Part shown: piece after piece, positions 7,219 to 63,704 of the stretch
Layout of the letters: every line of letters starts with the position of its first letter
Numbering within the stretch: position 1 is the first letter of the stretch
From: Sulfuricurvum sp.
GTDB taxonomy: Bacteria; Campylobacterota; Campylobacteria; Campylobacterales; Sulfurimonadaceae
Assembly (NCBI GenBank): GCA_024637295.1
Contig: JAGXFL010000009.1
Location: 1 to 64,000, forward strand
Length of the DNA stretch: 64,000 nucleotides
Reading direction: 5' to 3'
Notes under the pieces: model-generated
What the model was told of the DNA's origin: nothing
Databases searched by the model: none
Seen by the model: the letters and a program-made list of their open reading frames with translations, nothing else
Translations under genes and position numbers: made by a program

Positions 7219-7284
7219 TTTTTAGAGGATTCATACTAAAATATGACAGTTTACCATTATTGAATAATCATTGATGGTCTCATT

Positions 7285-7302
7285 ATGTGATTTAGATCAC
7301 AT
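7285..7302. promoter_or_regulatory. Palindromic CRP/FNR-family operator
   Basis: ATGTGATTTAGATCACAT contains a perfect TGTGA-N6-TCACA palindrome with A/T at the ends, the classical site of CRP-type regulators in the CRP/FNR superfamily. It is centred about 31 bases before the ATG at 7325 and directly upstream of TTAAAATTA, which could be a -10. If that -10 is used, the site lies inside the promoter, favouring repression; otherwise it could activate a promoter further down. Confidence 0.55.
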
Positions 7303-7324
7303 TAAAATTAATAAAAGGACAAAC

Positions 7325-30251: not shown

Positions 30252-32366
30252 TTAAATCTTGAGCTTAAATATTTTTGTCATTGGACTTAAGACTGCCGGT
30301 TCAAATAGATTTTTATCATAGTTTTCAAAGACAAACATTTGTATGTATTGTGACTGAAAATAGTAATCATCCATTACCAAAAATTGTCCGTAGCTTGCCA
30401 TAAAGATTACACTTAAACCTTCAGAAGCAAAGTTTTGCTGTGTAACTTGTATTTTTTGAGTCGCATCGTAGCCAACTTGATAAAAAGATTTTATAGGTAT
30501 GTTTTGCATCCCAATTTTGAGAGTGCTGGTTGCTTTTATTATTGATAATCCTTGCCCAAGTTCAAGTGTCTGTCCCGTATCTTGAGCCGATCTGCTTGAG
30601 TAAAAAAATGGTTGTTGAGGTTGGCTCTTACCTGTAAGATCAAGATTACTAAACAGCGCTACAGTAGGAAATATTTCCATCATACGAAGTGGCAGGTACA
30701 GATAGACATCACGTGTTTTTTTAGGAGTTTTATACTCTGGAAGGGCTAGTGCCGTAATAAAATCATTAGGGTCTTTAAATCCTTCTTTCTCCATCATGTA
30801 TTCAAAGTCATTTTTTGTTTTGTTGGTTTCGTAAAAACCTTTTTCGGTATATTCAGTAAATGAACGCATCATGTTAGCGGCAGAGAGAGGATTTTTAGTG
30901 GCCAATACAAAGGAAGCTGGATAATTCACATCACCGTTGTGTTTTCCTCCGTCTATCCATGTTTTTGTATTGCTGTAATAACGAATCGGGTATCCATAAT
31001 CCCACCAGCCGACGACATAATCTTCTTTAGAAGAGATTTTTTCTAATTGTTGCAGCGCTGCTACTTCAGGGGCTATCATAACTGTAGGCATTATATACTC
31101 TTTGATATGGGTATAGTTTGGATAGAGTGCTCCCAGTGTTAAAACTATCATTGTTGAATAGCGTACAGCAGTTATTTGGATAAATTGAGAAAGGTACACG
31201 ATGAGATATGCTAAACCTATTGCCATGACGGGTACAGCATAGATAGTGAAACGTAGTCCTGCAAACATAGCAATAAAGCCTAATCCAACCAGTGGTAGGG
31301 TTACCAAAAGTGGGCGATAGGCAATCAAAGATAGAATATAGCCGATACATGCCAGGATAAAGGTGACAGTATGTCCGCTAATACGCTCCGCAAAGAGAGT
31401 AAAAGGGATATGTCCTGCTTCTCTTACCGTAGAAATAACGTTGTAGTAGTTTAGCGAAGTTGATGTAGTGGTATTTTCGGTTGATCCGCGAAAGACGTAT
31501 GATTTTAAAAGTCCCACGATAAGATCCACCCCTCCACTAATGAAGTATATCCCTATTATAACGGCAAATAAAGGCCAAAATAATTTAAGTGAGAGTTCTT
31601 TTTGAAAGTGGAAGAAAGCAAATATAAGTAATGCTAAGCCTATTTTAGCCACGAGTGGTATCGCTAGAATCCCTAGAAGGACAAATAATGCAATCTTATA
31701 GTAAAAGATATTTTTTCGATCAAATAAGAGGGTATACCCTAAAATTGTAAGAAATAAAGCACTGTCCAATGCATACGCACCAGGATACCAAAATTGATAC
31801 ATAGCAATAGAAATCGTAATAGGAATAAGATAGCGATTGCGTTGATGAGTTAATGCTAGTATCAAAGAATATGTTTCTAAGACAGGTAAAACAATATTTA
31901 GCATATCGGTATCGTAATAACCGGACATAGTACGATTGTAATAGCTATTAGCAATGGAAGCGATAAGTGCGGCAATAAATCCAATTTTTGTCTGTCCAAG
32001 TGAGCGGCCAATCAAAATCAGAGGGATAACGATAAGTGAACCGATAAAAGAAGGCATATATAAGATAAGTGTTTCAAAGCTTACAGGGATTATTTTTGCA
32101 AGAAGCGCAGTGAGCTCAGCTAACGGTTCTTCGACTCCCGAGAGATCATTGGCCTCATGAGAACCATTTAATACGTCACGTGCACCTTCAGCATAGAGAT
32201 AGCCATCATTGGTGTTGATCATAAGCTCATTATTCCAATGAAATTGAGGCATGGCACTTACATCATTAACCCAGATAAATCGCATAGCGATAGAAAACAG
32301 ATAAGCAATGGCGATAAGAATAAATAAAGTGCGTAAGGAAGTATGTTCTTCGTCTAATTTTAGCAT
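30252..32366 (-). CDS. pglB: PglB, bacterial oligosaccharyltransferase (STT3 family)
   Basis: A protein of about 704 aa with a membrane N-terminal half (13 or so helices) and a soluble C-terminal domain. Catalytic features: NTNDGYLYAEG with the first acidic metal ligand (near residue 55), MSGYYDTDML, and WWDYGYPIRYYSNT, the acceptor-site WWDYG motif. It transfers lipid-linked oligosaccharide to Asn in D/E-X-N-X-S/T sequons of periplasmic proteins. The frame is open from 32408, but GGAGAAAC before the ATG at 32366 and homology in length to Campylobacter PglB (713 aa) favour the latter. It shows that the surrounding locus serves protein N-glycosylation. Confidence 0.93.
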   Translation of the reverse strand: MLKLDEEHTSLRTLFILIAIAYLFSIAMRFIWVNDVSAMPQFHWNNELMINTNDGYLYAEGARDVLNGSHEANDLSGVEEPLAELTALLAKIIPVSFETLILYMPSFIGSLIVIPLILIGRSLGQTKIGFIAALIASIANSYYNRTMSGYYDTDMLNIVLPVLETYSLILALTHQRNRYLIPITISIAMYQFWYPGAYALDSALFLTILGYTLLFDRKNIFYYKIALFVLLGILAIPLVAKIGLALLIFAFFHFQKELSLKLFWPLFAVIIGIYFISGGVDLIVGLLKSYVFRGSTENTTTSTSLNYYNVISTVREAGHIPFTLFAERISGHTVTFILACIGYILSLIAYRPLLVTLPLVGLGFIAMFAGLRFTIYAVPVMAIGLAYLIVYLSQFIQITAVRYSTMIVLTLGALYPNYTHIKEYIMPTVMIAPEVAALQQLEKISSKEDYVVGWWDYGYPIRYYSNTKTWIDGGKHNGDVNYPASFVLATKNPLSAANMMRSFTEYTEKGFYETNKTKNDFEYMMEKEGFKDPNDFITALALPEYKTPKKTRDVYLYLPLRMMEIFPTVALFSNLDLTGKSQPQQPFFYSSRSAQDTGQTLELGQGLSIIKATSTLKIGMQNIPIKSFYQVGYDATQKIQVTQQNFASEGLSVIFMASYGQFLVMDDYYFQSQYIQMFVFENYDKNLFEPAVLSPMTKIFKLKI

Positions 32367-32436
32367 TGGATTTGTTTCTCCGTGTTTTAGTGGGTGTATT
32401 TTAACCAAATGCTACGCTATTATCAATGTGAAAGGG

Positions 32437-33003
32437 TTAGTGAGTGATTCCATCTTTACGTAATACTTTTAAAAAAGTTAAAAAAATAATCTTGAGGTCA
32501 AATACAAAAGATTGTCGGTGCATATATTCGACATCGAGTAGCACCTTTTGAGGGATGGGCAATTCATCACGGCCATTGATCTGAGCCCATCCGGTAAGTC
32601 CTGGAGTTAGAAGATGAACCCCCTTGGCAGTACGCTGTGCAATAAGATCATCTTGATTAAATAATGCAGGGCGAGGACCTACAAAGCTCATGTCTCCTTT
32701 GAGGATATTCCACAGTTGAGGAAGTTCATCCAAACTGCTTTTCCGCAAAAAGGAGCCAATAGGTGTTAATAATGTTTCTGGATTATTTAATAAATGAGTA
32801 GCAACCGCGGGGGTGTCAACCCACATGCTACGAAATTTAGGCATCAAAAAAAGTTGATTATTTTTGCCTACTCGTTGAGACCAATACAATATTGGACCTT
32901 TTGATGTCAAGCGTACCATCAATGCTGTGCATAGAAATGGAATCACCAAGATTATGGCCGCGATGATTGCTAAAAGTATGTCAAAGTTTCGTTTTATGCT
33001 CAT
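32437..33003 (-). CDS. PglC-like initiating phosphoglycosyl transferase
   Basis: A 188-aa bacterial sugar transferase of the monotopic type. An N-terminal hydrophobic re-entrant helix (ILLAIIAAIILVIPFLCTAL) is followed by MPKFRSMW, SSLDELPQLWNILKGDMSFV and GPRPALF, the family's active-site segments, and a WAQINGR segment. It transfers a sugar phosphate to undecaprenyl phosphate and so starts the glycan. Length and context match PglC; the sugar donor could be UDP-diNAcBac or another UDP-sugar. It overlaps the epimerase gene by 4 bases (ATGA). Confidence 0.88.
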   Translation of the reverse strand: MSIKRNFDILLAIIAAIILVIPFLCTALMVRLTSKGPILYWSQRVGKNNQLFLMPKFRSMWVDTPAVATHLLNNPETLLTPIGSFLRKSSLDELPQLWNILKGDMSFVGPRPALFNQDDLIAQRTAKGVHLLTPGLTGWAQINGRDELPIPQKVLLDVEYMHRQSFVFDLKIIFLTFLKVLRKDGITH

Positions 33004-45020: not shown

Positions 45021-46083
45021 GTTTCTCCTGCAGTTTATTTTTTAAATTATCAATATCACGAATAAATAAAGCGTTGTCAAAATATTTAATTCCTCTGTAT
45101 AGAGTCAAAGCTTCTGCACCCATCCCCCGCTTGAAATCTGAAATATTGATTTGTTTTTTATCATAGTAATTGTTGAACCCGTCGATTATATTGAATCCGC
45201 ACGGTAAACCTAGATGAAGAAACTCATAGCCTATGTTTTTGTAATATTGTATGACATGCCAGAGTAATGTGTGTAATATAGCTTGATTGATAGGGGCATC
45301 TTCTTTTTTAGCTCCGCTGGCATACGAAACCGTTTTTTGACTATGTAAGCAGTAAATACCGCCAATTGGAGCATCATTTTCCAATAATACAAAGACGGAG
45401 CCTTTGTTGTCTTGCAGCATATTGTATTGCATATCATAGGTTGTATGGTTTTTTCTGCTATTGTTACTTTCTTTAATATGTAAATCAACGTACATGTCAT
45501 GGATGTTTTTATCGGGATTATTATGATCGCTCATCATGAGTTGATATTGATCTGACTTAAGGATTTTATTGATCAAATTTTTGTAACTGCTTCTTATATT
45601 TGTCCATAATTGTGACTCTGTCAAACTTAAATCAATAATGGAGTCATTGGAAGAACAATCAACATATCCATAGTCCAATAAATGGTTATGTTTGATATCA
45701 TAAGTCTTTAGCAGCGTGTCAATAAAGAATTTGACGATTTGAATGTCATTTGCTTGGCAAATCTCATCGATTTTATTAAATAGTATCTTTCCAAATTTAG
45801 CATCACTGAAAATTGGAGAGAGTGTATAATCACCATTTAATGTAATACTCTTGATGCCATCGATAACTTCAATAGGCAAAAAAACAGCTCCAGCGCATCT
45901 TCCATCCAGCATGACCATAAAAGACGCATCTCTTAGCAAATACCTTGACTGTTCGATACGGTAATCAAACATCTCAAGATAGTATCGATGAGTGATACGG
46001 TGTGTTTGAAGAAATGATGAATACTTTTCCCTAAATAAACTGGGATTTTCTTCTCTGGAAAGAAATGTGATATTATTTTTCAT
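45010..46083 (-). CDS. FemAB/GNAT-type acyltransferase
   Basis: A 357-aa protein with a double GNAT layout like FemAB and Acetyltransf_6 proteins. The N-terminal half has FMVMLDGRCAGAVFLP, the C-terminal half VFVLLENDAPIGGIYCLHS, LHLGLPCGFNIIDG and ISDFKRGMGAEALTL. In polysaccharide loci such proteins transfer aminoacyl or acyl groups to amino sugars. This is a second candidate N-acyltransferase in the locus besides the AAC(3)-fold one. It overlaps genes on both sides. Confidence 0.68.
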   Translation of the reverse strand: MKNNITFLSREENPSLFREKYSSFLQTHRITHRYYLEMFDYRIEQSRYLLRDASFMVMLDGRCAGAVFLPIEVIDGIKSITLNGDYTLSPIFSDAKFGKILFNKIDEICQANDIQIVKFFIDTLLKTYDIKHNHLLDYGYVDCSSNDSIIDLSLTESQLWTNIRSSYKNLINKILKSDQYQLMMSDHNNPDKNIHDMYVDLHIKESNNSRKNHTTYDMQYNMLQDNKGSVFVLLENDAPIGGIYCLHSQKTVSYASGAKKEDAPINQAILHTLLWHVIQYYKNIGYEFLHLGLPCGFNIIDGFNNYYDKKQINISDFKRGMGAEALTLYRGIKYFDNALFIRDIDNLKNKLQEKHGA

Positions 46084-47158
46084 TTTGATAGTTTTTCATG
46101 AACGCATTTATTTTTTTCAATTCACTATTTCTTGGAAGATTTAAATTAATGAGCTGAGTATTTGAAAAAGATGAAAAGATTAAATGATACAATTTTCTAA
46201 AAATAGTGAGCTTTTTTATGTAGCTTTGAACATTAAGCTTATTACAGTCATGTTCAGCATGTACTTTACGTTCATAGTATCTTGCGATAATATCACGAAC
46301 ATAAGCTGAATCGTCCGAGATCATGGAAGTAAAATGATTGATCATTCGTTGTATACTCGGCGCATAATTTTCATCACTTATCAAAAGATACGCTTTAGAA
46401 AACTTTCGTGTAAGCAAATCCCCATTTGAGCTTGTATTGGATTGGCGTATTAGATAAGGAACAGTAAGCCTCTTGACCTTGCCATTAAGCCAAAAGCTTA
46501 AATAGATGAATCGTTCATGTACTTCAAAATTAGTAAAATTATAGCTTACTATATCATTTAAAACTTTTTGGACAGGGTTTGTTCTATAAATATAATACCA
46601 GGATGTTGGTTCGTGGCTTTGATTGAAAAAACGGGCTATTTTTTCTCGTGAGTCAAGGGCTTGATCGTAGATAAAAGGGGTGTTTTCCAGAAAGATTTCA
46701 AAATTATCACCACTTAGGTGATCATTTGGATTGTGAGATTTTTCGTGTTCTCTTAATATACCGTAAAATACTTCACCACCACAGCCAAAGAAGTCATCAT
46801 TCTCTTCCAAGAATTGGAGGCTTTGTCTAATCCCATCCATACAAAAAAAGTCATCATTGTCCGCTTGCATGATCATATATTTTGTGGTTACTTTCGAAAC
46901 GATATCGGCATGTTTTCGAAAAAAATCGGATATTGTTTGATCATAGGGGTAGCGGATATATTCGTAATTTAAATTTGGGTAGTTACTATGGTCTTGGAGA
47001 TGTTTTTCCACTTCTGCATCTTCACCGCCATCCGCGATAAGGATTTTAAAAGGGCATTTATTCTCCTGCATCCATCGCATCCAGCGATACGTAAATGGAC
47101 TTCTGTCTTTGAGTGTTAAGACAATAGTTAATAATGGTGATACGTCTTTATGCTCCAC
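46073..47158 (-). CDS. Family 2 glycosyltransferase (TIGR00180-like)
   Basis: A protein of about 361 aa with LLTIVLTLKDRSPFTYRWMR at the N-terminus, then FKILIADGGED and IMQADNDDFF (the D-x-D-like metal site), typical of GT-A transferases of the TIGR00180 group. The frame is open up to 47248, well inside the upstream epimerase gene. GGAGA before the GTG at 47158 and the position of the first beta strand favour this start, giving an 11-base overlap with the epimerase stop. Donor sugar unknown. Confidence 0.8.
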   Translation of the reverse strand: MEHKDVSPLLTIVLTLKDRSPFTYRWMRWMQENKCPFKILIADGGEDAEVEKHLQDHSNYPNLNYEYIRYPYDQTISDFFRKHADIVSKVTTKYMIMQADNDDFFCMDGIRQSLQFLEENDDFFGCGGEVFYGILREHEKSHNPNDHLSGDNFEIFLENTPFIYDQALDSREKIARFFNQSHEPTSWYYIYRTNPVQKVLNDIVSYNFTNFEVHERFIYLSFWLNGKVKRLTVPYLIRQSNTSSNGDLLTRKFSKAYLLISDENYAPSIQRMINHFTSMISDDSAYVRDIIARYYERKVHAEHDCNKLNVQSYIKKLTIFRKLYHLIFSSFSNTQLINLNLPRNSELKKINAFMKNYQNEK

Positions 47159-48083
47159 TATTAGCTCTCCTGAGCATAGTAATGGTTTCTTTGATAGAGT
47201 TTTGTAGATCACCTGTATATTCAAAGCCAAGCTTTTTGAATTTTTCATTAGCGACGTTATAGGATAATTGGTTCATGATCTTAGTTTCTACAAAATTGAC
47301 TTGAATATCAGAGATTTCTTCTTTAATCATGTCGACTATCTCTGAAACAGTGCAGTTTTGTGTGAGGATATTGTAAATTTCACCATCAAACAGATCGTTT
47401 TTCAGGATATAAATCAAGGCATTTACTGCATCAACCAGATCTAAATAGGGTCTTTTTTGATGATACGCTGTTTTCCATACAGTGATGGGATCATCCATGA
47501 CCGCTTGCCAGCAAAACTTGTTAACAGCAGTGTGAAATCGCATTCCGATCGAAGAACCCGCAATCGTACCAAATCGTAAGATGATGTAATCCAATTGACC
47601 TTTTAGCGTTTTTAAATATTCTTCAGATTTAAACTTTGATTCGGCATATGGACTTTGAGGTTGAAGCTCTTCTTTGGAACAGTTTTCATCTACTATATCA
47701 TTTTGTGTTCCATAAACACTCGTGGTTGATAGAAAAATAAATTTAGCTCCAACACTCATACATGCATCAACAATTTTTTGTGTACCGATAAAATTGACTT
47801 CTTCTACTTCCTTCGCTTTATCAAAACTTCCCGCTGCATTGGTAATAGCTGCCAGATGGACAACTGCGTCAGCTCCTTGGAATATTTTGGTTAAATCAGC
47901 ATCCATGATATCTGCTTCTATAAACTTATAAGTACCATTTTTTGGTAAATTGAATAATGAACAGTAGCGTTGTGTCAGTAGATTGTCCAACATGACAATT
48001 TGACATTCAAATGCATTTGGCAATGCTCTGATAAGAGCTGATCCGATGTGACCAAGCGCACCGGTTACAATAATTTTTTTCAT
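47148..48083 (-). CDS. NAD-dependent sugar epimerase/dehydratase
   Basis: A 311-aa extended SDR: VTGALGHIGSALIRAL, VVHLAAITNAAGSF, LSTTSVYGTQND and the catalytic YAESK. Probably a sugar nucleotide epimerase, reductase or decarboxylase working on the dTDP- or UDP-sugars of the locus. One base from the FdtA-like gene upstream, indicating co-transcription. The substrate is not predictable from sequence. Confidence 0.82.
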   Translation of the reverse strand: MKKIIVTGALGHIGSALIRALPNAFECQIVMLDNLLTQRYCSLFNLPKNGTYKFIEADIMDADLTKIFQGADAVVHLAAITNAAGSFDKAKEVEEVNFIGTQKIVDACMSVGAKFIFLSTTSVYGTQNDIVDENCSKEELQPQSPYAESKFKSEEYLKTLKGQLDYIILRFGTIAGSSIGMRFHTAVNKFCWQAVMDDPITVWKTAYHQKRPYLDLVDAVNALIYILKNDLFDGEIYNILTQNCTVSEIVDMIKEEISDIQVNFVETKIMNQLSYNVANEKFKKLGFEYTGDLQNSIKETITMLRRANSGA

Positions 48084-52949: not shown

Positions 52950-54136
52950 TAACCTTGAGCATAGATATTGTTTTTATTTTCCTTGATCGCAATGACTGCA
53001 TGTTCTGCAAAAGCGAACGAACAGGTAAATGCCGGGCTTACTGCATTTAAAATATGGGTCGAATTGGACGTATGTTCGATGATGAAGTCTTGAACGAGCT
53101 CTTGGGTCCTGGTGTTGAGCAGTTGCGCTCTAATACCTGCTGGCATCGGTTTGAAGTTATCGCCAATATGATGTACCATATTTTTTGCTTTTTGGATAAA
53201 GATTCTAGAACTGTAGTTTTTCATTTCATTAAGTGCGAGTGTCCTAAAATTAAATGCATTGGAGATGAATAGTTTTATCTCATAATGGAGAATCTCTAGC
53301 ATCTCTAATAGATCAAAATTCTTTAGACCCTGATAGTTTTCGCGCCAAAAAGCAGGAATCGCAGTTGGGCCAATCTTGATAGACCCATCGGCGGTTATTG
53401 TATAGTGGACACCAAGAAATGGATTTGAAAGGTTTGGCACAGGATAAATATTGGTTTTTATCGCTGTTTTATCTTCCATGTATTTGAGATAGATACCTTT
53501 GAATGGGAGCATGGTATAGTGATGTGCTATGCCAAATTTATGAGCAATTTTATCAGCGTAAGCCCCGGCACAATTTATAAGATAAGTATATCTGAATTGA
53601 CAATCTTCGAATGAGGTGTTAAAGTGAAAGCTGACTCCACACTCTTGCAGCAGTGCTTTCAATGTATAACATACCTCTTTGGGATCTACGGAAGCTGTTG
53701 AAGGAGAAAAGAGGGCTTTCTTGTAAGTTTTCGCATTGGGATCAATCATAGAGAGCTCTATTTCATCTATAATATAGGTTTCGACACCATTGACTTGTGC
53801 TCGGCGATGAAGTTCAATAATACCTTGCACCTCTTGTTCGTTCGCAGCAATAACAACCTTTTGGGTTTTTTTAACAGGGATAGCATGTTCAAGACAAAAT
53901 TGTTTCATACGTCGATTTCCCTCGACCGTAAATTTAGCTTTTAAGCTATCTTCTGTGTAATAAAAGCCAGCATGTAAAACACCACTGTTACGTCCACTCG
54001 CATGTTTGGCAACGTCATCTTCTTTTTCGATAATAGCAATAGAAGCATCAGGCTCTTTAGCAATTAATTCATAGGCAATAGTCATACCGATGATGCCGCC
54101 TCCGACAATCAGATAATCATAAGACAGTTTATTCAT
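52949..54136 (-). CDS. LhgO-like FAD-dependent 2-hydroxyacid oxidoreductase
   Basis: A 395-aa protein of the DAO superfamily resembling L-2-hydroxyglutarate oxidase LhgO: YLIVGGGIIGMTIAYEL (FAD-binding), KHASGRNSGVLHAGFYY and MLPFKGIYLKYM, and a C-terminal MPAGIRAQL. Such enzymes oxidise an alpha-hydroxyacid. It sits between the PglK flippase and rfbC, with 4-base and 1-base overlaps, so it belongs to the glycan operon rather than central metabolism. A 2-hydroxyacid substrate is notable beside the ComA/ComB pair; any link is inferred. Confidence 0.8.
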   Translation of the reverse strand: MNKLSYDYLIVGGGIIGMTIAYELIAKEPDASIAIIEKEDDVAKHASGRNSGVLHAGFYYTEDSLKAKFTVEGNRRMKQFCLEHAIPVKKTQKVVIAANEQEVQGIIELHRRAQVNGVETYIIDEIELSMIDPNAKTYKKALFSPSTASVDPKEVCYTLKALLQECGVSFHFNTSFEDCQFRYTYLINCAGAYADKIAHKFGIAHHYTMLPFKGIYLKYMEDKTAIKTNIYPVPNLSNPFLGVHYTITADGSIKIGPTAIPAFWRENYQGLKNFDLLEMLEILHYEIKLFISNAFNFRTLALNEMKNYSSRIFIQKAKNMVHHIGDNFKPMPAGIRAQLLNTRTQELVQDFIIEHTSNSTHILNAVSPAFTCSFAFAEHAVIAIKENKNNIYAQG

Positions 54137-55812
54137 AATACTATCTTTCTATCGCATTTTTCTATCGTAGAGAGTCTGTGGGCAATGATTATCAAGGTCT
54201 TGTCAGCGGAGGCTTCATAGATTGCATCCATAATAAGGCTTTCAGTTTCATTGTCAAGCGCGGAAGTTGCTTCGTCAAGAACTAAAATTTCTGGATCTGC
54301 ATAGAGTGCTCTTGCTATTCCGATGCGTTGTTTTTGCCCTCCGCTTAACTGGATACCGCCTTCACCAACTCTCGTATCAACACCATCTTTCTTCATTAAA
54401 AATTCATATATATTCGCTTGCTGTAAAGCTTTTTTGATTTTTTCGGAGTTAAATTCATGTCCAAATGCAACGTTTTCTGCCACTGTTCCATCAAATAAAT
54501 AGATAGACTGAGGTATGTATCCAACTTTTGAACGCCAAGATTTTACATTATTGACAGTAAGTTCTTTGTTTCCAATTTTTATTGATCCACTGCATGGTTT
54601 GTAAATACCGATAATAATGTCGACCAACGTAGATTTTCCACTTCCGCTTTCTCCGGTAAAGGCGATTTTTTCCCCTTTTTTTATGACCAGGTTAACATTG
54701 TTTAACACATTGTGCTTTCCGTCATAACTGAAATTGATATTGTTTAGTTCAATATGCTCGTCAAAATCAATATTGTCTTCCCCTTCACTTTCTAAATCAT
54801 ACATTAAATCTGAATGTACAATATCCAAGGAGGTATGCAAAAATAAAATAGCGTTGTAGCTCGTTATCATACGATTGACAGCAGGTAGCATACGGTATAA
54901 GGCAAGTGCATACATTGATATCAAAGGTATAACAAACGCTGCGTTATTGTAGATGTATAAAATGTACATAACAACCGCGATAAGTGTAGAAAAGCCAATG
55001 GTTTCCAAGACGTTTCTTGGGATGGCTGCTACGGTTGTGTTTATTATATTGGCTTTTGAAAATCCTTGACTGGCTTCAGTAAAAGCATTAAAAATGATTT
55101 TTTCATTCCCAATGAGTTTGATCATTTTAAAGTTTCCAAAAGTCTCGCCAATAATTCGATAAAATTTTTCTTGTAACGTAGCTCTTTTCTCACCTTGAAG
55201 CCTGATGATTTTTGACAATGTTTTTGTCAGTAAAATGACTTTGACAGATAAAATAAGACTAAGCACTAAGGTCATTTTCCAATTGACGAAAAAAAGGATG
55301 ATATACAAAAAAAGGACGGTAAAAGATTCGGATAACAACATTAAAACATTTTGGATGATAGTAGTTAAATTATTTGCTTCGTTTATAATTGTTTTCGTCA
55401 GAGTCGCGGTATTTCGTTGGACAAACTCTTTATAGGGAAGACCAATATATCCTTGGAACAATTTATAAGCAAATTGATGATAACTTCCATATGAAAAACG
55501 GTTTAATATATATGAATACAAGATATTAAAGAGGGCCCTGAAAAGATAAAAGCAAATCAGAGATAATCCAAATGCAAGTACAAAGTTATTTTTTTCGTGA
55601 AATCCAAACAGATCATATGCCCGTTTATAATATCCGTTATCTATGAGATCTGGGTTGGATGCGATTGAAATAAAAGGCATAATTGCAGAGATACCGACTG
55701 TTTCAATAACGGACAAAAAAATGGTCAAAATAAAAAGAAATAAGAGAAATTTTTTATCTTTTAGGGTTAATAGAGCAGAGAGTTTACGAATAATCAATTT
55801 TACACCATCCAT
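54133..55812 (-). CDS. pglK: PglK-like ABC-type lipid-linked oligosaccharide flippase
   Basis: A 559-aa half-transporter: about six membrane helices (residues 20-310), then an ABC domain with Walker A GESGSGKSTL, signature LSGGQKQRIGIARAL and Walker B ILVLDEATSALD. The sequence follows Campylobacter PglK closely (IETVGISAIMPFI, ALYRMLPAVNRMITSY). It flips the undecaprenyl-linked glycan to the periplasm for PglB. The end is short: after RLSTIEKCDRKIVL the frame stops, so the usual dozen or so residues after the last strand are missing. Its stop overlaps the next gene. Confidence 0.9.
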   Translation of the reverse strand: MDGVKLIIRKLSALLTLKDKKFLLFLFILTIFLSVIETVGISAIMPFISIASNPDLIDNGYYKRAYDLFGFHEKNNFVLAFGLSLICFYLFRALFNILYSYILNRFSYGSYHQFAYKLFQGYIGLPYKEFVQRNTATLTKTIINEANNLTTIIQNVLMLLSESFTVLFLYIILFFVNWKMTLVLSLILSVKVILLTKTLSKIIRLQGEKRATLQEKFYRIIGETFGNFKMIKLIGNEKIIFNAFTEASQGFSKANIINTTVAAIPRNVLETIGFSTLIAVVMYILYIYNNAAFVIPLISMYALALYRMLPAVNRMITSYNAILFLHTSLDIVHSDLMYDLESEGEDNIDFDEHIELNNINFSYDGKHNVLNNVNLVIKKGEKIAFTGESGSGKSTLVDIIIGIYKPCSGSIKIGNKELTVNNVKSWRSKVGYIPQSIYLFDGTVAENVAFGHEFNSEKIKKALQQANIYEFLMKKDGVDTRVGEGGIQLSGGQKQRIGIARALYADPEILVLDEATSALDNETESLIMDAIYEASADKTLIIIAHRLSTIEKCDRKIVL

Positions 55813-55843: not shown

Positions 55844-56662
55844 TCATAGATTTCCTCTATTTTTTTGTATTTTAGTTTCCAGATCACATATAAAAAAAGT
55901 GTTGTCTTTTTTATAGAGATTAAACATCTCTTCTTCAAGAATATCTGTTCGGATTGCTTCGATTTTAAATCTATCGACTTCCCATGTTTCTACTAGTTTT
56001 TTTGCTTTGAGATGTTTTTCTAGATTGGAAAAGTCCGCTTCATAGGGAGTGTTTAGTTCTCTTCCATAAAAAGTGACTCGTTGAGGAGTTTTAATGGACA
56101 TGTTGTCGATAATACCTTCAAAGGTGAAGTTTTTCCGATATTCAACCGAGAGTTTTTTTTCTACATAGTGTGCTTCTGTCATTCTTCGTAGAACAGGACC
56201 AATTGAACATATATAGCCATGATGAGCGAAGAGTTCGTGTATTAAGGATGACTCTCCAAATGATTCGTAATCTTGTGAGCTAAAGTGATGAAATTTCTTA
56301 TTTTCACTAAATACAGTATATGAAAGCATCGGATCTACAGTCCGTTTGTCTGTATTTGATTTTCTGATGTATTCATTGACTTGGCCTACGGATGAAGGTG
56401 AACTTTCCATATTGTATTCACTGATTGAGCTGCGAGATGAAAAGCTATAGGAAAAAGATGGAATCAGTATTTGACCTCCATTGTCTTTTACGTTATTCAT
56501 CAAGGTATTAAAAGTATTTAATTTTGAGTTAATCAAATCATTAATATTCGTTCCGCTATTTAATCCAAAATGCATTAGACCTGTCATATCTATATGGATA
56601 ACAGCAGGATTTTCTTGAGTCTTAGTCACCAATGTGTCCAGGACTTTTTTATAGAAATCCAT
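55844..56662 (-). CDS. AAC(3)-fold N-acyltransferase
   Basis: A 272-aa protein of the antibiotic_NAT/AAC(3) family: IHIDMTGLMHFGL, GGQILIPSFSYSFSSR, SSVGQVNEYIRKSN, KRTVDPMLSYTVF and YESFGESSLIHELF. Family members acylate amino groups; some sit in glycan loci, where an amino sugar is the likely acceptor. It follows the ACP and AMP-ligase genes, so the acyl donor may be an acyl-ACP. An antibiotic-resistance role is unlikely from this context. Confidence 0.8.
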   Translation of the reverse strand: MDFYKKVLDTLVTKTQENPAVIHIDMTGLMHFGLNSGTNINDLINSKLNTFNTLMNNVKDNGGQILIPSFSYSFSSRSSISEYNMESSPSSVGQVNEYIRKSNTDKRTVDPMLSYTVFSENKKFHHFSSQDYESFGESSLIHELFAHHGYICSIGPVLRRMTEAHYVEKKLSVEYRKNFTFEGIIDNMSIKTPQRVTFYGRELNTPYEADFSNLEKHLKAKKLVETWEVDRFKIEAIRTDILEEEMFNLYKKDNTFFICDLETKIQKNRGNL

Positions 56663-56666
56663 AATG

Positions 56667-58022
56667 TTACTTTATCTCTTCATACGTTGATAAGTTTTGA
56701 GCGATTTTTTTTCTATCTATTTTAAACGTTTGAGTATACTCAATAGTCGTTATTTGGTAATATTTATGAGGGATTTCGTAGGGTCTTAACACTTTTCTGA
56801 GATTTTCCAATAGGAATCTTTTTGTCAATGTATCATTGCTTTGAATGCATAATGCGATAAGGGTACCAAAGGGTTCTTGCTTAAATGGGACGATAATGAC
56901 AATACTCTCTTTTAAAATATCGGATATTTTTCTTTCGATATTTTTGAGTGAAATCTTATTTCCACCTATTTTAATCTCATCATCCATACGACCCTCTATG
57001 ATAAAGCCATTGTCTACTATGACTTTATCCCCGGTAGGATGAGGACGAGAAGATGGAATAAATTGGTTATTGATAATGTATCCAAAAAATAAAAAGTCGG
57101 AATCAACGTACAGTTGATCTTCTTGTACAGTACAGGTGGTGCCGCCGATATTTTTACCAATTTTGAGGTATTCATTTTTTTCTGTATTTCGATCATATTT
57201 ATTAATGAAAAATCTTCCGGCTAATTCTGCTAACCCATATACATGAAAAAATAACGTGCTTGGGAAAGTTTTGATAATTTTCTCTATGACTGAAGGATAG
57301 ATCAAATCACCTGATGAGAAAAAATAGATTGGTTTTGCATCAGTGGCTAAGTAGTTTAATGTCATGAGCAGATGTACAGGCGAGCCAACAATTGCTAGGT
57401 TTTTATATAGCTGTGAGTATTTTTCTATCTCTATTTTATCTTCAATATCTGTGAATATTAAATGTGATTCTGTGCTTAGATGCACTAGAAAATGGCTTAA
57501 GGCACTGACTAGATATGGTTTTAGCATTGTAATAGAGACATAACCACTTAGTCCGATTTCATTGATCATGGACTGTGCATTTTTAAAAAAATGACTATGA
57601 TGATGCAAAATTCCTTTTGGCTTACCTGTACTTCCGGAAGAAAATAAAACAGTGTCTCCACGTTCGTCGTATGCAGTTTCCATGTAAGAGGTATTTAGCT
57701 CAGATTTTATATCGCTCCCATCATAGCGAAGGGTGTATTTGCAGTTTTCAAAAATACATGTTCCTTCTAAAAAATCTTTATTTGGAAAATATATTTTCAA
57801 TCCTTGACGCCAACATGCGAAAATAAGAGGGTATAGATGTAAAGGATTTTCACAGTGTAATGCAATAAATTCTTTGATAAGTGAAGTATTCGTTTTTGTG
57901 AGGATCTCTTCTATTTTTATTACATCATTGTAAAAATCATCTCTGGAAATCGAAGTACCCTTATAGCTTATTAGCAATGCAGAATTATTTTTAAGAGTGT
58001 CTATGATTGTATCGATTGTCAT
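56667..58022 (-). CDS. AMP-forming acid-ACP ligase (ANL superfamily)
   Basis: A 451-aa adenylate-forming enzyme, shorter than the usual 500-550 aa, missing much of the N-terminal region. Core motifs: LFSSGSTGKPKGILHHH (P-loop), HVYGLAELAGRFF, PTGDKVIVDNGFIIEGRMDD and EIKIGGNKISLKNIERKI, with C-terminal catalytic Lys in KIDRKK. The stop overlaps the AAC(3)-fold region by a short gap, and its start overlaps the ACP gene by 4 bases. It probably loads a carboxylic acid onto the ACP; the acid is unknown, with sulfolactate a candidate from the ComA/ComB neighbours. Confidence 0.82.
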   Translation of the reverse strand: MTIDTIIDTLKNNSALLISYKGTSISRDDFYNDVIKIEEILTKTNTSLIKEFIALHCENPLHLYPLIFACWRQGLKIYFPNKDFLEGTCIFENCKYTLRYDGSDIKSELNTSYMETAYDERGDTVLFSSGSTGKPKGILHHHSHFFKNAQSMINEIGLSGYVSITMLKPYLVSALSHFLVHLSTESHLIFTDIEDKIEIEKYSQLYKNLAIVGSPVHLLMTLNYLATDAKPIYFFSSGDLIYPSVIEKIIKTFPSTLFFHVYGLAELAGRFFINKYDRNTEKNEYLKIGKNIGGTTCTVQEDQLYVDSDFLFFGYIINNQFIPSSRPHPTGDKVIVDNGFIIEGRMDDEIKIGGNKISLKNIERKISDILKESIVIIVPFKQEPFGTLIALCIQSNDTLTKRFLLENLRKVLRPYEIPHKYYQITTIEYTQTFKIDRKKIAQNLSTYEEIK

Positions 58023-58261
58023 TTTGTATTTTCTAAGAGTTTATTATTCGTATATGTAATTATCTTATTGACGGTGCCAAAGCTTTCCAGTGATATCTCT
58101 TCGGGATTGATCTCTACGGAAAAATTCATCTGTATAAAAAGCATGATATGGAATATATTCATCGAGTCCATGAGTCCACTTTCCCCAAATATTTCGCCAT
58201 CTAAATCTAGAACTTTTTTACCTGAAAGTAGCTCGATTTCTTCAACTAATTCATTTAACAT
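58019..58261 (-). CDS. Acyl carrier protein
   Basis: An ACP of about 80 aa with the phosphopantetheine site in GLMDSMNIFHIMLFIQ (Ser in DSM), helical and acidic, full-length for a discrete carrier. AAAAAGG at good spacing supports the ATG at 58261 rather than the in-frame 58285. It is translationally coupled to the AMP-ligase. A TATAAT about 57 bases upstream marks the likely start of an ACP-ligase-acyltransferase transcript. This is a dedicated carrier, separate from the fatty-acid AcpP. Confidence 0.85.
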   Translation of the reverse strand: MLNELVEEIELLSGKKVLDLDGEIFGESGLMDSMNIFHIMLFIQMNFSVEINPEEISLESFGTVNKIITYTNNKLLENTK

Positions 58262-58317
58262 AGAAACCTTTTTAAATTTAATCATTTATTGCAATAAACT
58301 AATAGATATTAGGGGCG

Positions 58318-58364: not shown

Positions 58365-58766
58365 TTAATACATCATCTGTGGGTTGTAGTAATATTTAAA
58401 CTCCAACAGATTGTTTGAAGGATCAATCAAAAAAAAGCTGATATGTTCTTCTGGTGTTCCAATAAAACGTGAAAAAACTTTTTCGTAAAATGGTAAATTT
58501 CGCATTTCAGCCAATTTTACCAGATCATCAAAATGTTGTTTTTCATAAAAAGTAATTCCGGCATGTCTAGGGTACATCTCCGGATGTTTATCAGTTTTTT
58601 CCGGATATTTATGACATACTAGTTGATCTCCAAAAAAATCTAATGTAATTCGGTCATCATAACGTCTAGCTAGTTTACATCCCAGCCCCGTGACATAAAA
58701 ACTATATGTCTCATCCAAATCGTTACAAGGTACCGCTAGATGAAATACATTTCGTGAATCGCGCAT
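58365..58766 (-). CDS. VOC-family (glyoxalase-like) protein
   Basis: A protein of about 133 aa with the VOC fold: FHLAVPCNDLDETYSFYVTG with the first metal His, ITLDFFGDQLVCH, RHAGITFYEKQHF, and FFLIDPSNNLLEFKYY with the final Glu. Such proteins bind a divalent metal and handle small acids or dicarbonyls. AAAAGGGGAG precedes the ATG at 58766, chosen over the in-frame upstream start at 58823. It directly follows comA, so a role in the same pathway is plausible; the reaction is unknown. Confidence 0.75.
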   Translation of the reverse strand: MRDSRNVFHLAVPCNDLDETYSFYVTGLGCKLARRYDDRITLDFFGDQLVCHKYPEKTDKHPEMYPRHAGITFYEKQHFDDLVKLAEMRNLPFYEKVFSRFIGTPEEHISFFLIDPSNNLLEFKYYYNPQMMY

Positions 58767-58779
58767 TTCACTCCCCTTT

Positions 58780-59544
58780 TTAGTGATTATCGAAAAGAAA
58801 AAAAGTATCTGAACGTAAACCAAGCCGTAACGTTTCTAAGGAAATAATGTCAGAAAATGCAATATTGGCTAAATTGCAATTTGTACCAAGTTTCTTGATG
58901 AAATGAGTTTGCAGCTTTTTATTTGGTGCTTCAAAAATCAGATCACTTAGAGATATTTCTGAATCCATGATTTCTTCGATCAATCCAATCCTAAGCTCTC
59001 CATTACTACGACAAATCCCACTTGTACCACTTTCTCGTGACTCTGTTATGACTTTGATTGCGCCGGCGGCTAAGTCTTCTTTTATGTATTCAATCCATTT
59101 TTTTGGAGACATCTCTTCAGATTTTTCTGAATCTTTTAATCCTACTTCACTAAAAACTTGATATTTTTTAGCAAAATCTGTAATGTATTTACACTTTTCT
59201 TGATTAGAAATATCTATAGTTCCATTGGAGACTTCGACAAAGCGACATTGATGTTCATCGAGAAATTTTTTATAATCTTCAATTTTGTTTTGATATAAAA
59301 ATATTTCAAAAAGAGTACCACCAAAAAAATAATCGATTTTATGACTCTGTAGAAACTCAATTTTCTTTTTAAGTTGAGGGGTGACTATTGAAGTCCCCCA
59401 GCCAAATTTAATAAAATCAATTTGTTCAATGCTACTTTCAACAACATCTTTAAAGTAGGCGAGCGGATATCCATTGTCAATTAAAAGATTTAATCCAGTA
59501 GCTCTTGGTTTTTGTTCCCTGTATGGAAGAGAAAGTTTATGCAT
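58780..59544 (-). CDS. comA: ComA-like phosphosulfolactate synthase
   Basis: A 254-aa TIM-barrel protein matching the family along its length: LNLLIDNGYPL, IDFIKFGWGTSIVTP, DYFFGGTLFEIFLY, FVEVSNGTIDI, AIKVITESRESGTSGI, LIFEAPNKKLQTHFIKKLG and LETLRLGLRSDTF. The family adds sulfite to phosphoenolpyruvate to give (R)-2-phospho-3-sulfolactate, the first step of coenzyme M synthesis in methanogens and of sulfolactate synthesis in Bacillus spores. It overlaps comB by 8 bases. Its occurrence in a protein-glycosylation locus is unusual. Confidence 0.92.
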   Translation of the reverse strand: MHKLSLPYREQKPRATGLNLLIDNGYPLAYFKDVVESSIEQIDFIKFGWGTSIVTPQLKKKIEFLQSHKIDYFFGGTLFEIFLYQNKIEDYKKFLDEHQCRFVEVSNGTIDISNQEKCKYITDFAKKYQVFSEVGLKDSEKSEEMSPKKWIEYIKEDLAAGAIKVITESRESGTSGICRSNGELRIGLIEEIMDSEISLSDLIFEAPNKKLQTHFIKKLGTNCNLANIAFSDIISLETLRLGLRSDTFFLFDNH

Positions 59545-60247
59545 TGATTAGCCTTTTTACAATTTTTGTGTGATTCCCATCATGGATAATTTGCATTATA
59601 AAGTTGCTTTTTTGCAGCGTCAAGCATTTTATCAAGTCAAGTACCGAAAAATCGGTATTACACGGATCTAAAAACTTTTCGGCTGCAGCCGAATGTATAA
59701 TCCTGGTTGCTGTTTCTTCTTGAAGAGTTTGTATATCATGATACTCATTTAATATTAAATTTTTCATATATTGTGCACATGATAGGTCGTCATCTCCATT
59801 GGGGTGCGAGGCAATAATATTGATGATGGCATTGTTGTCATAGGTGTCTTTTACCAATTTTTGAACCCAGAGGGATGTTTCATAGGCATTGACAAACCCT
59901 GTTACTAGAACATGCTCAGCCTCTAGGGAGTTTAATGTTACTTTCACTCCATTTGTAGTGCGTTGAACCAATGTTTTATCAGCGATATTGGCAGTTGAGA
60001 TTTCTTGCGGCGAATTGCCAAAATCAAATCCATCAATTTTATAACCACCTATTTCACCAGAGAGAAGATAGTCAGAATGATGATTTTTTAAAGCCAAAGC
60101 TTCATGCTCATCACTGATTAAAATGATCTCTTTGATCCCGTTTTCATACGCATAAAAAGACACTGTGAAAGCTCGGATAACGTCAATGATTATATTGATA
60201 TCGGAAGGCGGGGGAGATGTAACGCCTTGTATGATATTGATTGTCAT
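59537..60247 (-). CDS. comB: ComB-like 2-phosphosulfolactate phosphatase
   Basis: A 236-aa protein with the ComB hallmarks: NIIIDVIRAFT near the N-terminus, LLSGEIGGYKIDGFDFGNSP, LVQRTTNGVKV and a VTGFVNAYETSLWV segment. The family is an Mg-dependent acid phosphatase that removes phosphate from 2-phospho-3-sulfolactate. It is encoded directly upstream of comA with an 8-base overlap, so the two form a two-step pathway from PEP and sulfite to (R)-3-sulfolactate. ComC, ComD and ComE, needed to go on to coenzyme M, are not seen nearby. Confidence 0.92.
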   Translation of the reverse strand: MTINIIQGVTSPPPSDINIIIDVIRAFTVSFYAYENGIKEIILISDEHEALALKNHHSDYLLSGEIGGYKIDGFDFGNSPQEISTANIADKTLVQRTTNGVKVTLNSLEAEHVLVTGFVNAYETSLWVQKLVKDTYDNNAIINIIASHPNGDDDLSCAQYMKNLILNEYHDIQTLQEETATRIIHSAAAEKFLDPCNTDFSVLDLIKCLTLQKSNFIMQIIHDGNHTKIVKRLINA

Positions 60248-60285: not shown

Positions 60286-61605
60286 TTATTGCTTTTTAAC
60301 AGCATCACACTCGACTAGTTTATCGATAAAATCTTTTACTTTCCAATAGTCCATTTGCAATTCAAGCGCAATTTCCAATATAGACTGCTTTCCTTCGAGC
60401 ATGTAGACAATCTTATCCATAAAGATACCAGCATCCGGGTCATCGTAAAAAGAGGTATGCAACCCTAACCCAGATAAAAAGATGATCCCTCTCTCTTTTT
60501 GTTTTGGAATATAGTTTGTGCAGTATATCCGAACTGCTTCTTCAAAAATATCAACCGCTTCAAGCAGCTTTTTTTCACTTATAATATCAAGATTATCGGC
60601 AGATGTATGATATTCATCATATATCTTTGTTGAAAAATACGGTCTTGTTTCCCCTGTCAATGTCCCTTTTGAAATAAATGGGCAGGGAATATTGACCCCT
60701 GGCCCGTTTATATTTCCTTCGTCATTCCAGCGTTCAAAATTTCTGATGGAGAAACTTTTACCTTGTTTTTTCAAAACGTATTCAAATACATGATTGATCA
60801 AATCATCACTGTTTCTGGATAATTGCAGGATAAAGTTTTCATCATCTTTATGCCCTATCATCTCAGTGAAAAAGGCAGATGTCGTCTTATCGATAATCTG
60901 CTCATTATTGGCTAAATAGGAGATGCTACCAATCGTTTCGGGACAAACCAAAAAATTGATGTTTCTCGTAGGGTTTTTGATAGGGTTTTCATGCAGTCTG
61001 TTTAATAATTCTACACCTGCGACCAAACCACTGAGACTGTCATTTGTTTGATAGGGATGGCAAACATTAGTGCATAGTAATAAATCTTTTTCACAGCCGT
61101 AATCGAGATAGCTCGTCAATACTTTTAATCCCGGAGAATTTAAAAACTCTACATCTATGTCAACAAAATACTTTTTGTCCTGAGGCATTTTCAGATACTT
61201 GTTATGTTCCAAAGAGAATCCCCATGCTTTGTCATAAAACTTAAAGTACCATGGGATATGATCAGGTTTTCTTTGTGATGTATAAATATGTTTTGTCAAT
61301 TCCTGATAGCTAAGTTCCTTGTTGACAGCAATAGAATATGACCAAAGATACAATGGATTCCAAGCAAAATCAGCGTAAATAGTACCATCTTCATCTTTCA
61401 AAGTGGCATGATTGACTTTGTAGCGTTGAGGGATTGTCCAAGTCCAAACTTTCGAACCACAGGGGTATTCATGAATGTTCGTTTTTAATTCAGAGGATAA
61501 ATAAGATTTTGTGATCTCTAATGCTTTGTCGGTGTCATCTGAAATTAAGGTTCTGTGTAAAGGGTAAATTTTTTGTAATAATTCCATCATTGTCGTTTTT
61601 TTCAT
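60286..61605 (-). CDS. DUF4910 aminopeptidase-like protein
   Basis: A protein of about 439 aa of the DUF4910/DUF2172 type: an M28-like zinc peptidase fold with NVCHPYQTNDSLSGLVAGVE, FLVCPETIGSISYL and YDEYHTSADNLDII, in which His, Asp and Glu form the metal site. A winged-helix-like C-terminal domain follows (QSILEIALELQMDYWKVKDFIDKL). Members are common in surface-glycan loci; their reaction is not established, but an amide-cleaving (deacylase) role is possible. The frame opens at a GTG at 61620; GGAG before the ATG at 61605 supports the latter. Confidence 0.83.
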   Translation of the reverse strand: MKKTTMMELLQKIYPLHRTLISDDTDKALEITKSYLSSELKTNIHEYPCGSKVWTWTIPQRYKVNHATLKDEDGTIYADFAWNPLYLWSYSIAVNKELSYQELTKHIYTSQRKPDHIPWYFKFYDKAWGFSLEHNKYLKMPQDKKYFVDIDVEFLNSPGLKVLTSYLDYGCEKDLLLCTNVCHPYQTNDSLSGLVAGVELLNRLHENPIKNPTRNINFLVCPETIGSISYLANNEQIIDKTTSAFFTEMIGHKDDENFILQLSRNSDDLINHVFEYVLKKQGKSFSIRNFERWNDEGNINGPGVNIPCPFISKGTLTGETRPYFSTKIYDEYHTSADNLDIISEKKLLEAVDIFEEAVRIYCTNYIPKQKERGIIFLSGLGLHTSFYDDPDAGIFMDKIVYMLEGKQSILEIALELQMDYWKVKDFIDKLVECDAVKKQ

Positions 61606-61607
61606 AT

Positions 61608-62378
61608 TTACAAGCTCCACCCATCATCGACTATAAAATTTTGTCCGTTTACAAATTTTGACATATCTGAAAGTAAGTATATCAAAGTTCCATTAAGGTC
61701 AGATGGGTCAAGCATCCCTTTTGAAGAAGCGTATGCATTGTATTTTTCTAAAAAAGTATTGTCTTGATTGTTCAAGATACCTCCCGGGCTGAGAGCATTT
61801 ACCCGAATATTAGTCCCTTTAAAATATTTAGCCATGTATTTTGTCAGTTGGATTAGAGCAGATTTAATGGCAGCGTATTCGACAGGCATACTCATGGTGG
61901 TCCCCTCGTAGAGTTCAAACCGTGGAGCTATGACACCATAAATTGAAGAGATATTGATGATATTTCCGTAGCTTTGTTTTTGGAAGTATTGCGCTATTTG
62001 TTGGCTTGCTAAAAAATAACCACCGAGGTTTAGATTGAGGTTTTCACAAAAATCTTCATACTCTACCTCAAAAAAATTACGACCGTAATTTTTGTTACGA
62101 GGATACGCGTTATTGACGAGTGCATCAATACGACCGTATTGGTTATGAAGGGTATCGATCATCGCATTGATAGAGGATTTGGAGGTTATATCCAATGCAA
62201 TGACCTCGATTTTTGCATTTGGATAGATAGATAAGATAGCATCTTTTGCTGTCATACCCGCTTCATGGCTGATGTCTGCAATCACGGCGATGCCATTGTG
62301 CTTAACAACGGTTTTAATAAATTCACGCCCTAGAAGCCCTGCACCACCTGTTACAATAACAACCTTGCTCTCTAACAT
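61608..62378 (-). CDS. PtmA-like short-chain dehydrogenase
   Basis: A 256-aa classical SDR: VIVTGGAGLLGREFIKTV (NAD-binding TGxxxGxG), LVNNAYPRN, IINISSIYGVIAPRFE and the catalytic YAAIKSALIQL, plus NALSPGGI and a C-terminal FIVDDGWSL. Length and sequence resemble PtmA of Campylobacter flagellin glycosylation. It may reduce or oxidise a sugar intermediate. It starts 9 bases after the aminotransferase stop and runs up to the DUF4910 gene. Confidence 0.84.
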   Translation of the reverse strand: MLESKVVIVTGGAGLLGREFIKTVVKHNGIAVIADISHEAGMTAKDAILSIYPNAKIEVIALDITSKSSINAMIDTLHNQYGRIDALVNNAYPRNKNYGRNFFEVEYEDFCENLNLNLGGYFLASQQIAQYFQKQSYGNIINISSIYGVIAPRFELYEGTTMSMPVEYAAIKSALIQLTKYMAKYFKGTNIRVNALSPGGILNNQDNTFLEKYNAYASSKGMLDPSDLNGTLIYLLSDMSKFVNGQNFIVDDGWSL

Positions 62379-62387
62379 CTCGTACCT

Positions 62388-63704
62388 TTAATTGTATTTT
62401 CTAAAAACCGGTTTTACGGGAGGACCTATGAGCAGTGATCCGACTTGATTGGTCTCGATGGCATAGTGTAATGTCTTTAACGCTTTTTCAAATCCTTCGA
62501 TGGTTTGAGCAATTTCTGAGGCACCATGAGAAAAAGAGGGGTTGAATCCTTGCAGTAAAACACCATATTGAATCATCTCTTGCATAAACAACGTTCGCAA
62601 GATGTTATCAGGTTTTCCATCGATATCAAGGAATACCAAATAGGGACGACAGTCAATTCCGTCAATATAGGTTAGTTTATCTAGCGCGTATTGTTTTGCA
62701 ATTCGATTGTAGGCTTCTTTGATCGTTTTGCCTACTTGCCAGATATGTTTGGTCACTTCATAGTCGTTGGCCAATAAGATTTCGATTGTTTTTTGGGCTG
62801 CTCTGAGATGATGCGTTTCTCCGCCGTAGGTGGTGGACAATAAAAAAACTCTCTCTTTATCGTGATCGATGCCGCCAAGCTCCATAATCTCTTTTTGGCC
62901 GACAAGAGCTGAAACGGAGTACCCATTTGCAATGGCTTTTCCCAGAGTAGAGAGATGGGGAGTGACGCCGTAAAGAGACTGCGCCCCTTTTGGATGAAAG
63001 CGAAAACCGGAGACGACTTCATCAAAAATGAGGACTATGCCATTGCGCTCACAGAGTGCTTTTACCCCTTCAAGAAAGCCTGGTGCAGGTTCATGGGTAG
63101 CAGCGGGTTCGATAATGACACAGGCTATTTTATTGTGATGCTCGGCAATTTTTGTCTCAAGATTGTTTAGGTCATTGTATCGGAAGTGATCCGTATGTTG
63201 CTTATCTGCCTCCGGAATTCCGGCATCGACAACGGTATTTCCCATGAACCAGTCGTCAATACTGAAAAAGGGTTGATCATAACATCGTAAAACCATGTTT
63301 CTTCCGGTGTATGCCCGGGAAACTTTGACTGCTGAAGTTGTAGCATTGGAACCATTTTTACTAAACTTAACCATTTGGGCACTGGGGATGGTATTAGAAA
63401 TGAGTTCAGCAACTTCGGCTTCAATATATGAGGGGCGAATAAAATTACAGCCATTATCGAGTTCACTTTTGATGGCTTCTACTACCGGTTCGTATGCATG
63501 ACCGAGGATAACGGAAGTGAGCCCCATACCCCAATCGATAAATTCATTTCCATCAACATCCCAAATCCTCGCACCTTTGCCTCTAACTATTGAATGAGGG
63601 GACAAAAGAGGAAACTGATCGTCGCCTTTGCTGTAAGTATGCGCACCACCTGGGATTAATCGTTTTGCTTTGAGTCTTAGCTCATTTGATCGGTCAAAAT
63701 TCAT
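62388..63704 (-). CDS. Class III (glutamate-1-semialdehyde aminomutase-like) aminotransferase
   Basis: A 438-aa PLP enzyme: LIPGGAHTYSKGDDQFP, FSKNGSNATTSAVKVSRAYTG, IFDEVVSGFRF and STLGKAIANG with the PLP-binding Lys. It belongs to the HemL-like group but carries a long C-terminal extension and sits in a glycan locus, so it more likely transaminates a sugar or small-acid intermediate than a heme precursor. Its ATG overlaps the stop of the nucleotidyltransferase gene (ATGA). Confidence 0.85.
   Translation of the reverse strand: MNFDRSNELRLKAKRLIPGGAHTYSKGDDQFPLLSPHSIVRGKGARIWDVDGNEFIDWGMGLTSVILGHAYEPVVEAIKSELDNGCNFIRPSYIEAEVAELISNTIPSAQMVKFSKNGSNATTSAVKVSRAYTGRNMVLRCYDQPFFSIDDWFMGNTVVDAGIPEADKQHTDHFRYNDLNNLETKIAEHHNKIACVIIEPAATHEPAPGFLEGVKALCERNGIVLIFDEVVSGFRFHPKGAQSLYGVTPHLSTLGKAIANGYSVSALVGQKEIMELGGIDHDKERVFLLSTTYGGETHHLRAAQKTIEILLANDYEVTKHIWQVGKTIKEAYNRIAKQYALDKLTYIDGIDCRPYLVFLDIDGKPDNILRTLFMQEMIQYGVLLQGFNPSFSHGASEIAQTIEGFEKALKTLHYAIETNQVGSLLIGPPVKPVFRKYN

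Follow-up and report, generated by a model that had tools for sequence, protein, structure and literature searches.

What would a bacterium do with sulfolactate when the genes that make it lie among genes for building protein glycans? The question is raised by the window, i.e., the whole stretch of 64,000 nucleotides of Sulfuricurvum sp. DNA analyzed here, in which genes for ComA and ComB, the predicted enzymes of sulfolactate synthesis, are followed by genes of acyl activation and glycan export. The features on which the argument draws are the following:

28458-30248, minus strand: PglF-type dehydratase, at the distal end of the one-strand run (PF02719, 356 bits)
30252-32408, minus strand: PglB oligosaccharyltransferase (STT3/PglB core, 163 bits; WWDYG present)
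32437-33003, minus strand: PglC-type phosphoglycosyltransferase (PF02397, 199 bits)
54133-55812, minus strand: PglK-type flippase (NCBIfam PglK model, 608 bits, below its cut-off)
55844-56662, minus strand: AAC(3)-family N-acyltransferase (PF02522, 57 bits; motif MTEAHYVE)
56667-58022, minus strand: AMP-forming carrier-protein ligase, DltA-like (PF00501; 7VHV, 73 bits and alignment; 47% identical to the ligase of genome G102)
58019-58285, minus strand: acyl carrier protein (ACP), DltC-like, with a DSM phosphopantetheine site (NCBIfam DltC, E 1e-7; GLMDSMN)
58365-58766, minus strand: VOC/glyoxalase-fold protein, conserved partner of ComA (133 aa; His9, His52, His68 and Glu122 conserved; 3RRI)
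58780-59544, minus strand: ComA, (2R)-phospho-3-sulfolactate synthase of the B. subtilis YitD type (254 aa; PF02679, 1U83, invariant columns, tree)
59537-60247, minus strand: ComB, 2-phosphosulfolactate phosphatase (236 aa; PF04029, 11/11 invariant columns)
60286-61620, minus strand: DUF2172/DUF4910 aminopeptidase-like protein, candidate sugar N-deacylase (PF16254, 155 bits; PF09940, 77 bits; 3K9T, 158 bits)
61608-62378, minus strand: PtmA-like SDR (NCBIfam PRK09186, 369 bits, above cut-off; PtmA, 287 bits, below cut-off)
62388-63704, minus strand: class III aminotransferase, GSAM-like (PRK06209, 567 bits, above cut-off)

ComA, ComB and the glycan locus

The first-pass annotation of this DNA had described adjacent, overlapping ComA and ComB genes with clear family motifs; its coordinates are exact, and the motifs that it named are present. 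ComA scores 279.8 bits against PF02679 (Pfam gathering cut-off 25.2) and, in a PDB comparison, 309 bits over 248 aa against 1U83 (B. subtilis YitD), and it departs at none of the 36 positions at which 24 other ComAs, those of M. jannaschii and B. subtilis included, are invariant. The cut-off of the archaeal ComA equivalog TIGR03849 (NCBIfam) was missed (229 vs 280 bits), as expected, because this ComA belongs to the Bacillus-type clade. For ComB, the score against PF04029 is 124.4 bits (gathering cut-off 26.4) and that against the structure 1VR0 is 70 bits, and every one of the columns invariant in 19 other ComBs is retained; its C-terminal quarter is divergent, and no cut-off of an NCBIfam equivalog was reached (best, 91 vs 235 bits). 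A chance match or a pseudogene was ruled out, since both proteins are full-length and keep their invariant residues. The predicted identities of the two enzymes are thus well supported, and Sulfuricurvum sp. is likely to produce sulfolactate with them. Both open reading frames are intact and overlap by 8 bp, which suggests translational coupling.

All substantial genes from 28458 to the right edge of the window lie on the minus strand, and the run continues for 12 kb beyond that edge, so that it spans ~47.5 kb (28458 to C13:76014). The pgl-type locus reported at first reading is therefore real (PglB, PglC, PglF and PglK), and its size, given then as ~35 kb, had to be revised. PglB with its WWDYG motif, PglK and PglC together identify an N-glycosylation locus of the Pgl kind; PglB and PglK miss the cut-offs of their NCBIfam equivalogs. 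Several sugar-modifying enzymes are also encoded within the run. In transcript order, the central genes are aminotransferase, PtmA-like SDR, DUF4910, ComB, ComA, VOC, ACP, ligase, AAC(3) and PglK, and from DUF4910 to PglK they are separated by short gaps or overlap. Beyond the window edge, we found a LegC-family aminotransferase (562 bits, above cut-off), a NeuB-family synthase, NeuD, a cytidylyltransferase and a CBS-nucleotidyltransferase, a set that reads as a legionaminic-acid-type pathway. The earlier gene set was right for ComA and ComB, and had overlooked the VOC protein, the DUF4910/DUF2172 protein and these nonulosonic acid genes past the window. The glycan locus also encodes a 391-aa protein with no Pfam match (46073-47248).

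Distribution and origin of ComA

ComA is rare among the relatives of this bacterium. Of 399 sampled Campylobacterales genomes, two (that of the window and G197) were found to encode it, and of 36 relatives from the same genus, none, compared to 125 of 300 Bacilli and 19 of 296 genomes of one Actinomycetota class; weak matches of 18-21 bits in three Campylobacterales genomes fell under the cut-off. A Sulfurimonas MAG (locus L008) encodes a ComA 75% identical to that of the window, in the same order ComB-ComA-VOC; the immediate upstream neighbors are an ATP-grasp gene and a hexapeptide-type gene, of which the end is seen. In a quick tree, these two ComAs nest with 1U83 of B. subtilis and other Bacilli (SH-aLRT 99), and their nearest relatives outside Sulfurimonadaceae are from Bacillota. 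comA has a GC content of 32%, lower than that of the island (36%) and that of the first 26 kb of the window (41%). ComA was probably acquired horizontally, and Bacillota as the source is the simplest reading. Carriage by phages or other viruses was considered and rejected, with ComA absent from phage records and viral contigs, and relatives of ComA on plasmids are at most 41% identical to that of the window. On a Legionella lytica plasmid (L224, 7847-10759), ComA is contained in a 970-aa fusion protein that is followed by ComB. In a separate ComA clade from Bacilli (L162, L170, L173, L177 and L190), ComA-ComB is followed by a conserved gene of ~151 aa, and a gene of ~424 aa usually precedes ComA.

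The VOC gene directly follows comA. Within the clade of the window ComA, a homologue stands beside ComA in 20 of 27 loci (window included), whereas ComB is nearby in 8 of these 27; outside the clade, none of 75 ComA loci has a VOC homologue beside ComA.

A possible route from sulfolactate to a glycan

We propose that ComA would combine PEP and sulfite into (2R)-phosphosulfolactate, which ComB would dephosphorylate to (R)-3-sulfolactate; the DltA-like ligase would activate sulfolactate with ATP and load it on the ACP, the DUF2172/DUF4910 enzyme would remove an N-acetyl group from the sugar before acyl transfer, and the AAC(3)-like enzyme would pass the sulfolactyl group to the sugar amine. The acceptor would most likely be a legionaminic-type nonulosonic acid from the genes just upstream, or else a different amino sugar within the PglB/PglK glycan; the former is favored because nonulosonic acid genes lie past the window edge. 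Substrates, acyl transfer and acceptor are what we infer from gene content and order. We assign a probability of about 0.5 to the whole route, in which sulfolactate is made, is loaded on the ACP by the ligase and then becomes the N-acyl group of an amino sugar, which is probably a nonulosonic acid; for the use of sulfolactate on a glycan as such, the balance is in favor. That sulfolactate is made here for a glycan had been suggested before, and genuine ComA and ComB in a glycan locus, in a genome without ComC, partly support this, with the N-glycan as a putative destination.

Sulfite for ComA could plausibly come from sulfur oxidation, as the first-pass annotation had assumed. The genome encodes SoxB (809 bits, above cut-off), and positions 2967-5391 of the window (plus strand) encode a SoxC-like molybdopterin oxidoreductase and a SoxD-like cytochrome c, which makes a sulfur oxidizer plausible. 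CysH is absent from the genome by a search that was positive in 14 of 14 controls. Near the SoxCD-like genes are three genes for DUF302-domain proteins (303-1328, 7271-8302 and 8398-9426).

Sulfolactate is glycerate with a sulfonate in place of the 3-hydroxyl. Where the D-alanine ligase 7VHV has the Asp of its FDLS motif, which we take to be the amine-binding residue of DltA, the window ligase has Ala, as read from one pairwise alignment; an acid without an alpha-amino group would therefore fit. Acyl-activating genes also accompany ComA elsewhere. In Actinomycetota, genes for an AMP ligase (PF00501) and a membrane acyltransferase (PF01757, Acyl_transf_3) come after ComA-VOC; in another lineage (L156), the order is ligase-acyltransferase-ComA-VOC, and in a Bacilli genome (L193), an acyltransferase precedes ComA-VOC. 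Altogether, 10 of 19 VOC-linked loci have a ligase or acyltransferase in the vicinity of ComA, versus 1 of 82 others, with related loci counted as if independent. A point against the proposed route is that the Actinomycetota ligase is only 22% identical to that of the window. Judged by its predicted proteins, the window shares the acyl-activation logic of Actinomycetota with different parts, namely a DltC-like ACP, a DltA-like ligase and an AAC(3)-like transferase. More tentatively, and at less than even odds, ComA-VOC, ligase and acyltransferase may form a mobile system that recurs across several phyla and decorates surface glycans with sulfolactyl groups, with a membrane O-acyltransferase in Actinomycetota and ACP plus AAC(3) here, where the product would be a sulfolactylated nonulosonic acid or N-glycan.

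The best-surviving alternative, which we consider rather unlikely, is that sulfolactate is made, but the ACP-ligase-AAC(3) trio attaches another acid, e.g., a glycerate derivative as on the pseudaminic acid of C. jejuni, and sulfolactate is attached by another enzyme or at another glycan site. Genome G102, from another family, supports it: a 45-47% identical ligase, with a pocket segment near-identical to that of the window, is encoded with ACP, AAC(3) and DUF4910 directly beside PseG, PseH and PseI, and no ComA was found there in the search of the Campylobacterales sample. This position ties the block to nonulosonic acids, but the lack of ComA leaves the trio without such a tie to sulfolactate. 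Conversely, G433 (a MAG) and G197 have ComA and no homologue of the window-type ligase; the contig of G433 stops just past VOC, and the ligase was sought across its whole genome. Both have an ATP-grasp gene close to ComA instead, which would be another way of activating a carboxylate. The co-occurrence of ComA and ComB with Pgl proteins and the trio, proposed at first reading as a check, consequently gives a mixed answer: ComA lies in glycan clusters here and in G197 (ComA-PseG-ATPgrasp-PseI), while G102 has the trio and no ComA, and G433 and G197 have ComA and no such ligase. Against a different acid for the trio, however, ComB-ComA-VOC is inserted directly between DUF4910 and ACP in the window, and ComA and the window-type ligase, each rare, are found together in this genome.

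Two described systems resemble parts of the N-acylation by sulfolactate that we favor. In C. jejuni, pseudaminic acid carries a 2,3-di-O-methylglyceroyl group that depends on the aminopeptidase-like glycan protein Cj1295; in the proposal of the authors, Cj1295 removes the acetyl group to make way for a different acyl group (PMC3068675). The window likewise has an aminopeptidase-like DUF2172/DUF4910 protein within a nonulosonic acid locus, as would suit an N-acyl exchange of this kind; the C. jejuni system, likened here by family description, also has the adjoining N-acetyltransferase-family Cj1296/7 (PMC3068675), but no ComA or ComB is known there, and the glycan is O-linked to flagellin. Type B flagellin of C. 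difficile bears a sulfonated peptidylamido-glycan (PMC5207245), in which, as proposed here, an amino sugar of the protein glycan is capped by a sulfonated group, although the cap is taurine-Ala-Gly rather than sulfolactate, and the glycan is O-linked. Since taurine on this flagellin has been described, sulfonated glycans are a known kind, and the sulfolactyl substituent would be new; we found no sulfolactate-bearing glycan in the open-access papers searched. If the proposed route is true, sulfolactate, known as a coenzyme M precursor and a spore solute, would also serve bacteria as an acyl substituent of their surface sugars, which would be its third use; the glycan would gain a strong permanent negative charge, and sulfur oxidation would be linked to glycan chemistry.

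Free sulfolactate, the VOC protein and coenzyme M

Sulfolactate could also remain free, as a solute like that of Bacillus spores, or be excreted, in which case its genes would have come to lie in a glycan locus by an accident of horizontal transfer into a variable island. In B. subtilis, the yitCD operon has been assigned to phosphosulfolactate synthesis, and sulfolactate makes up ~5% of spore dry weight (PMC517825). This operon (ComB-ComA) shares with the window the two families, their order and the ComA clade, and the affiliation of the closest ComA relatives with Bacillota fits such a use. Its surroundings differ, with CysH neighbors, a sporulation context and no glycan or acyl-transfer genes, and no VOC gene is present in a sampled close relative (L187). 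The embedding of comAB in a tight one-strand run, and the location of the one other sampled Campylobacterales ComA (G197) in a glycan cluster as well, make a free solute unlikely.

Another alternative concerns the VOC protein, which might alter the acid before use, by epimerization or another step on phosphosulfolactate, so that the attached group would be a derivative of sulfolactate. The closer tie of VOC than of ComB to the ComA clade (20 vs 8 of 27 loci) is in line with this, as is Sediminibacillus G437, which has ComA and VOC and no ComB anywhere in its genome. The closest structure is 3RRI, from Alicyclobacillus and of no known function (67% identical, Z 22.2), followed, at tied Z, by folds of fosfomycin-resistance and bleomycin-binding proteins; the substrate of the former is a small phosphonate. 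The VOC protein keeps several arginines besides its conserved histidines and Glu122, and is perhaps an enzyme or binder of a three-carbon sulfonate. However, function cannot be read from a fold for which bleomycin-binding proteins score alike, and some loci carry ComA and ComB without VOC, so that we regard a modified acid as improbable. Under the proposed glycan route, the conserved VOC protein would gain a function, its structure 3RRI having been released in 2011 with no known role. In Sediminibacillus, a PAPS reductase gene is divergent from ComA-VOC (L015 and L017, 8980-9695), and the genome of L015 yielded no ComB.

Archaeal and bacterial coenzyme M pathways alike begin with ComA, but a coenzyme M route, whether of the archaeal kind (with ComC/D/E) or of the bacterial kind (with a phosphosulfolactate lyase), is highly improbable here and was rejected, since ComC (Ldh_2), noted at first reading as missing from the locus together with ComD/E, has no match in the whole genome, the aspartase/fumarase-type lyase signature is absent from the window and from 18 kb at and beyond its edge (L007), and ComB is present. 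Bacterial coenzyme M clusters, as on plasmids of Xanthobacter and Methylocystis, share the ComA step with the window, whereas they have aspartase/fumarase-type lyases and a PLP enzyme instead of ComB. The lyase signature was detected at L221 and L225; it is present in the ComA cluster of the Methylocystis plasmid, which looks like one for bacterial coenzyme M biosynthesis. At L221 (7343-12655), which belongs to G197, a genome from a different family of Campylobacterales, consecutive genes encode an ArgH-like lyase, ComA, a PseG-like protein, an ATP-grasp protein and pseudaminic acid synthase; this putative cluster may represent a second design for placing a sulfonate in a glycan, via a lyase. 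The lyase of G197 is 33% identical to the one adjoining ComA in the Methylocystis plasmid cluster.
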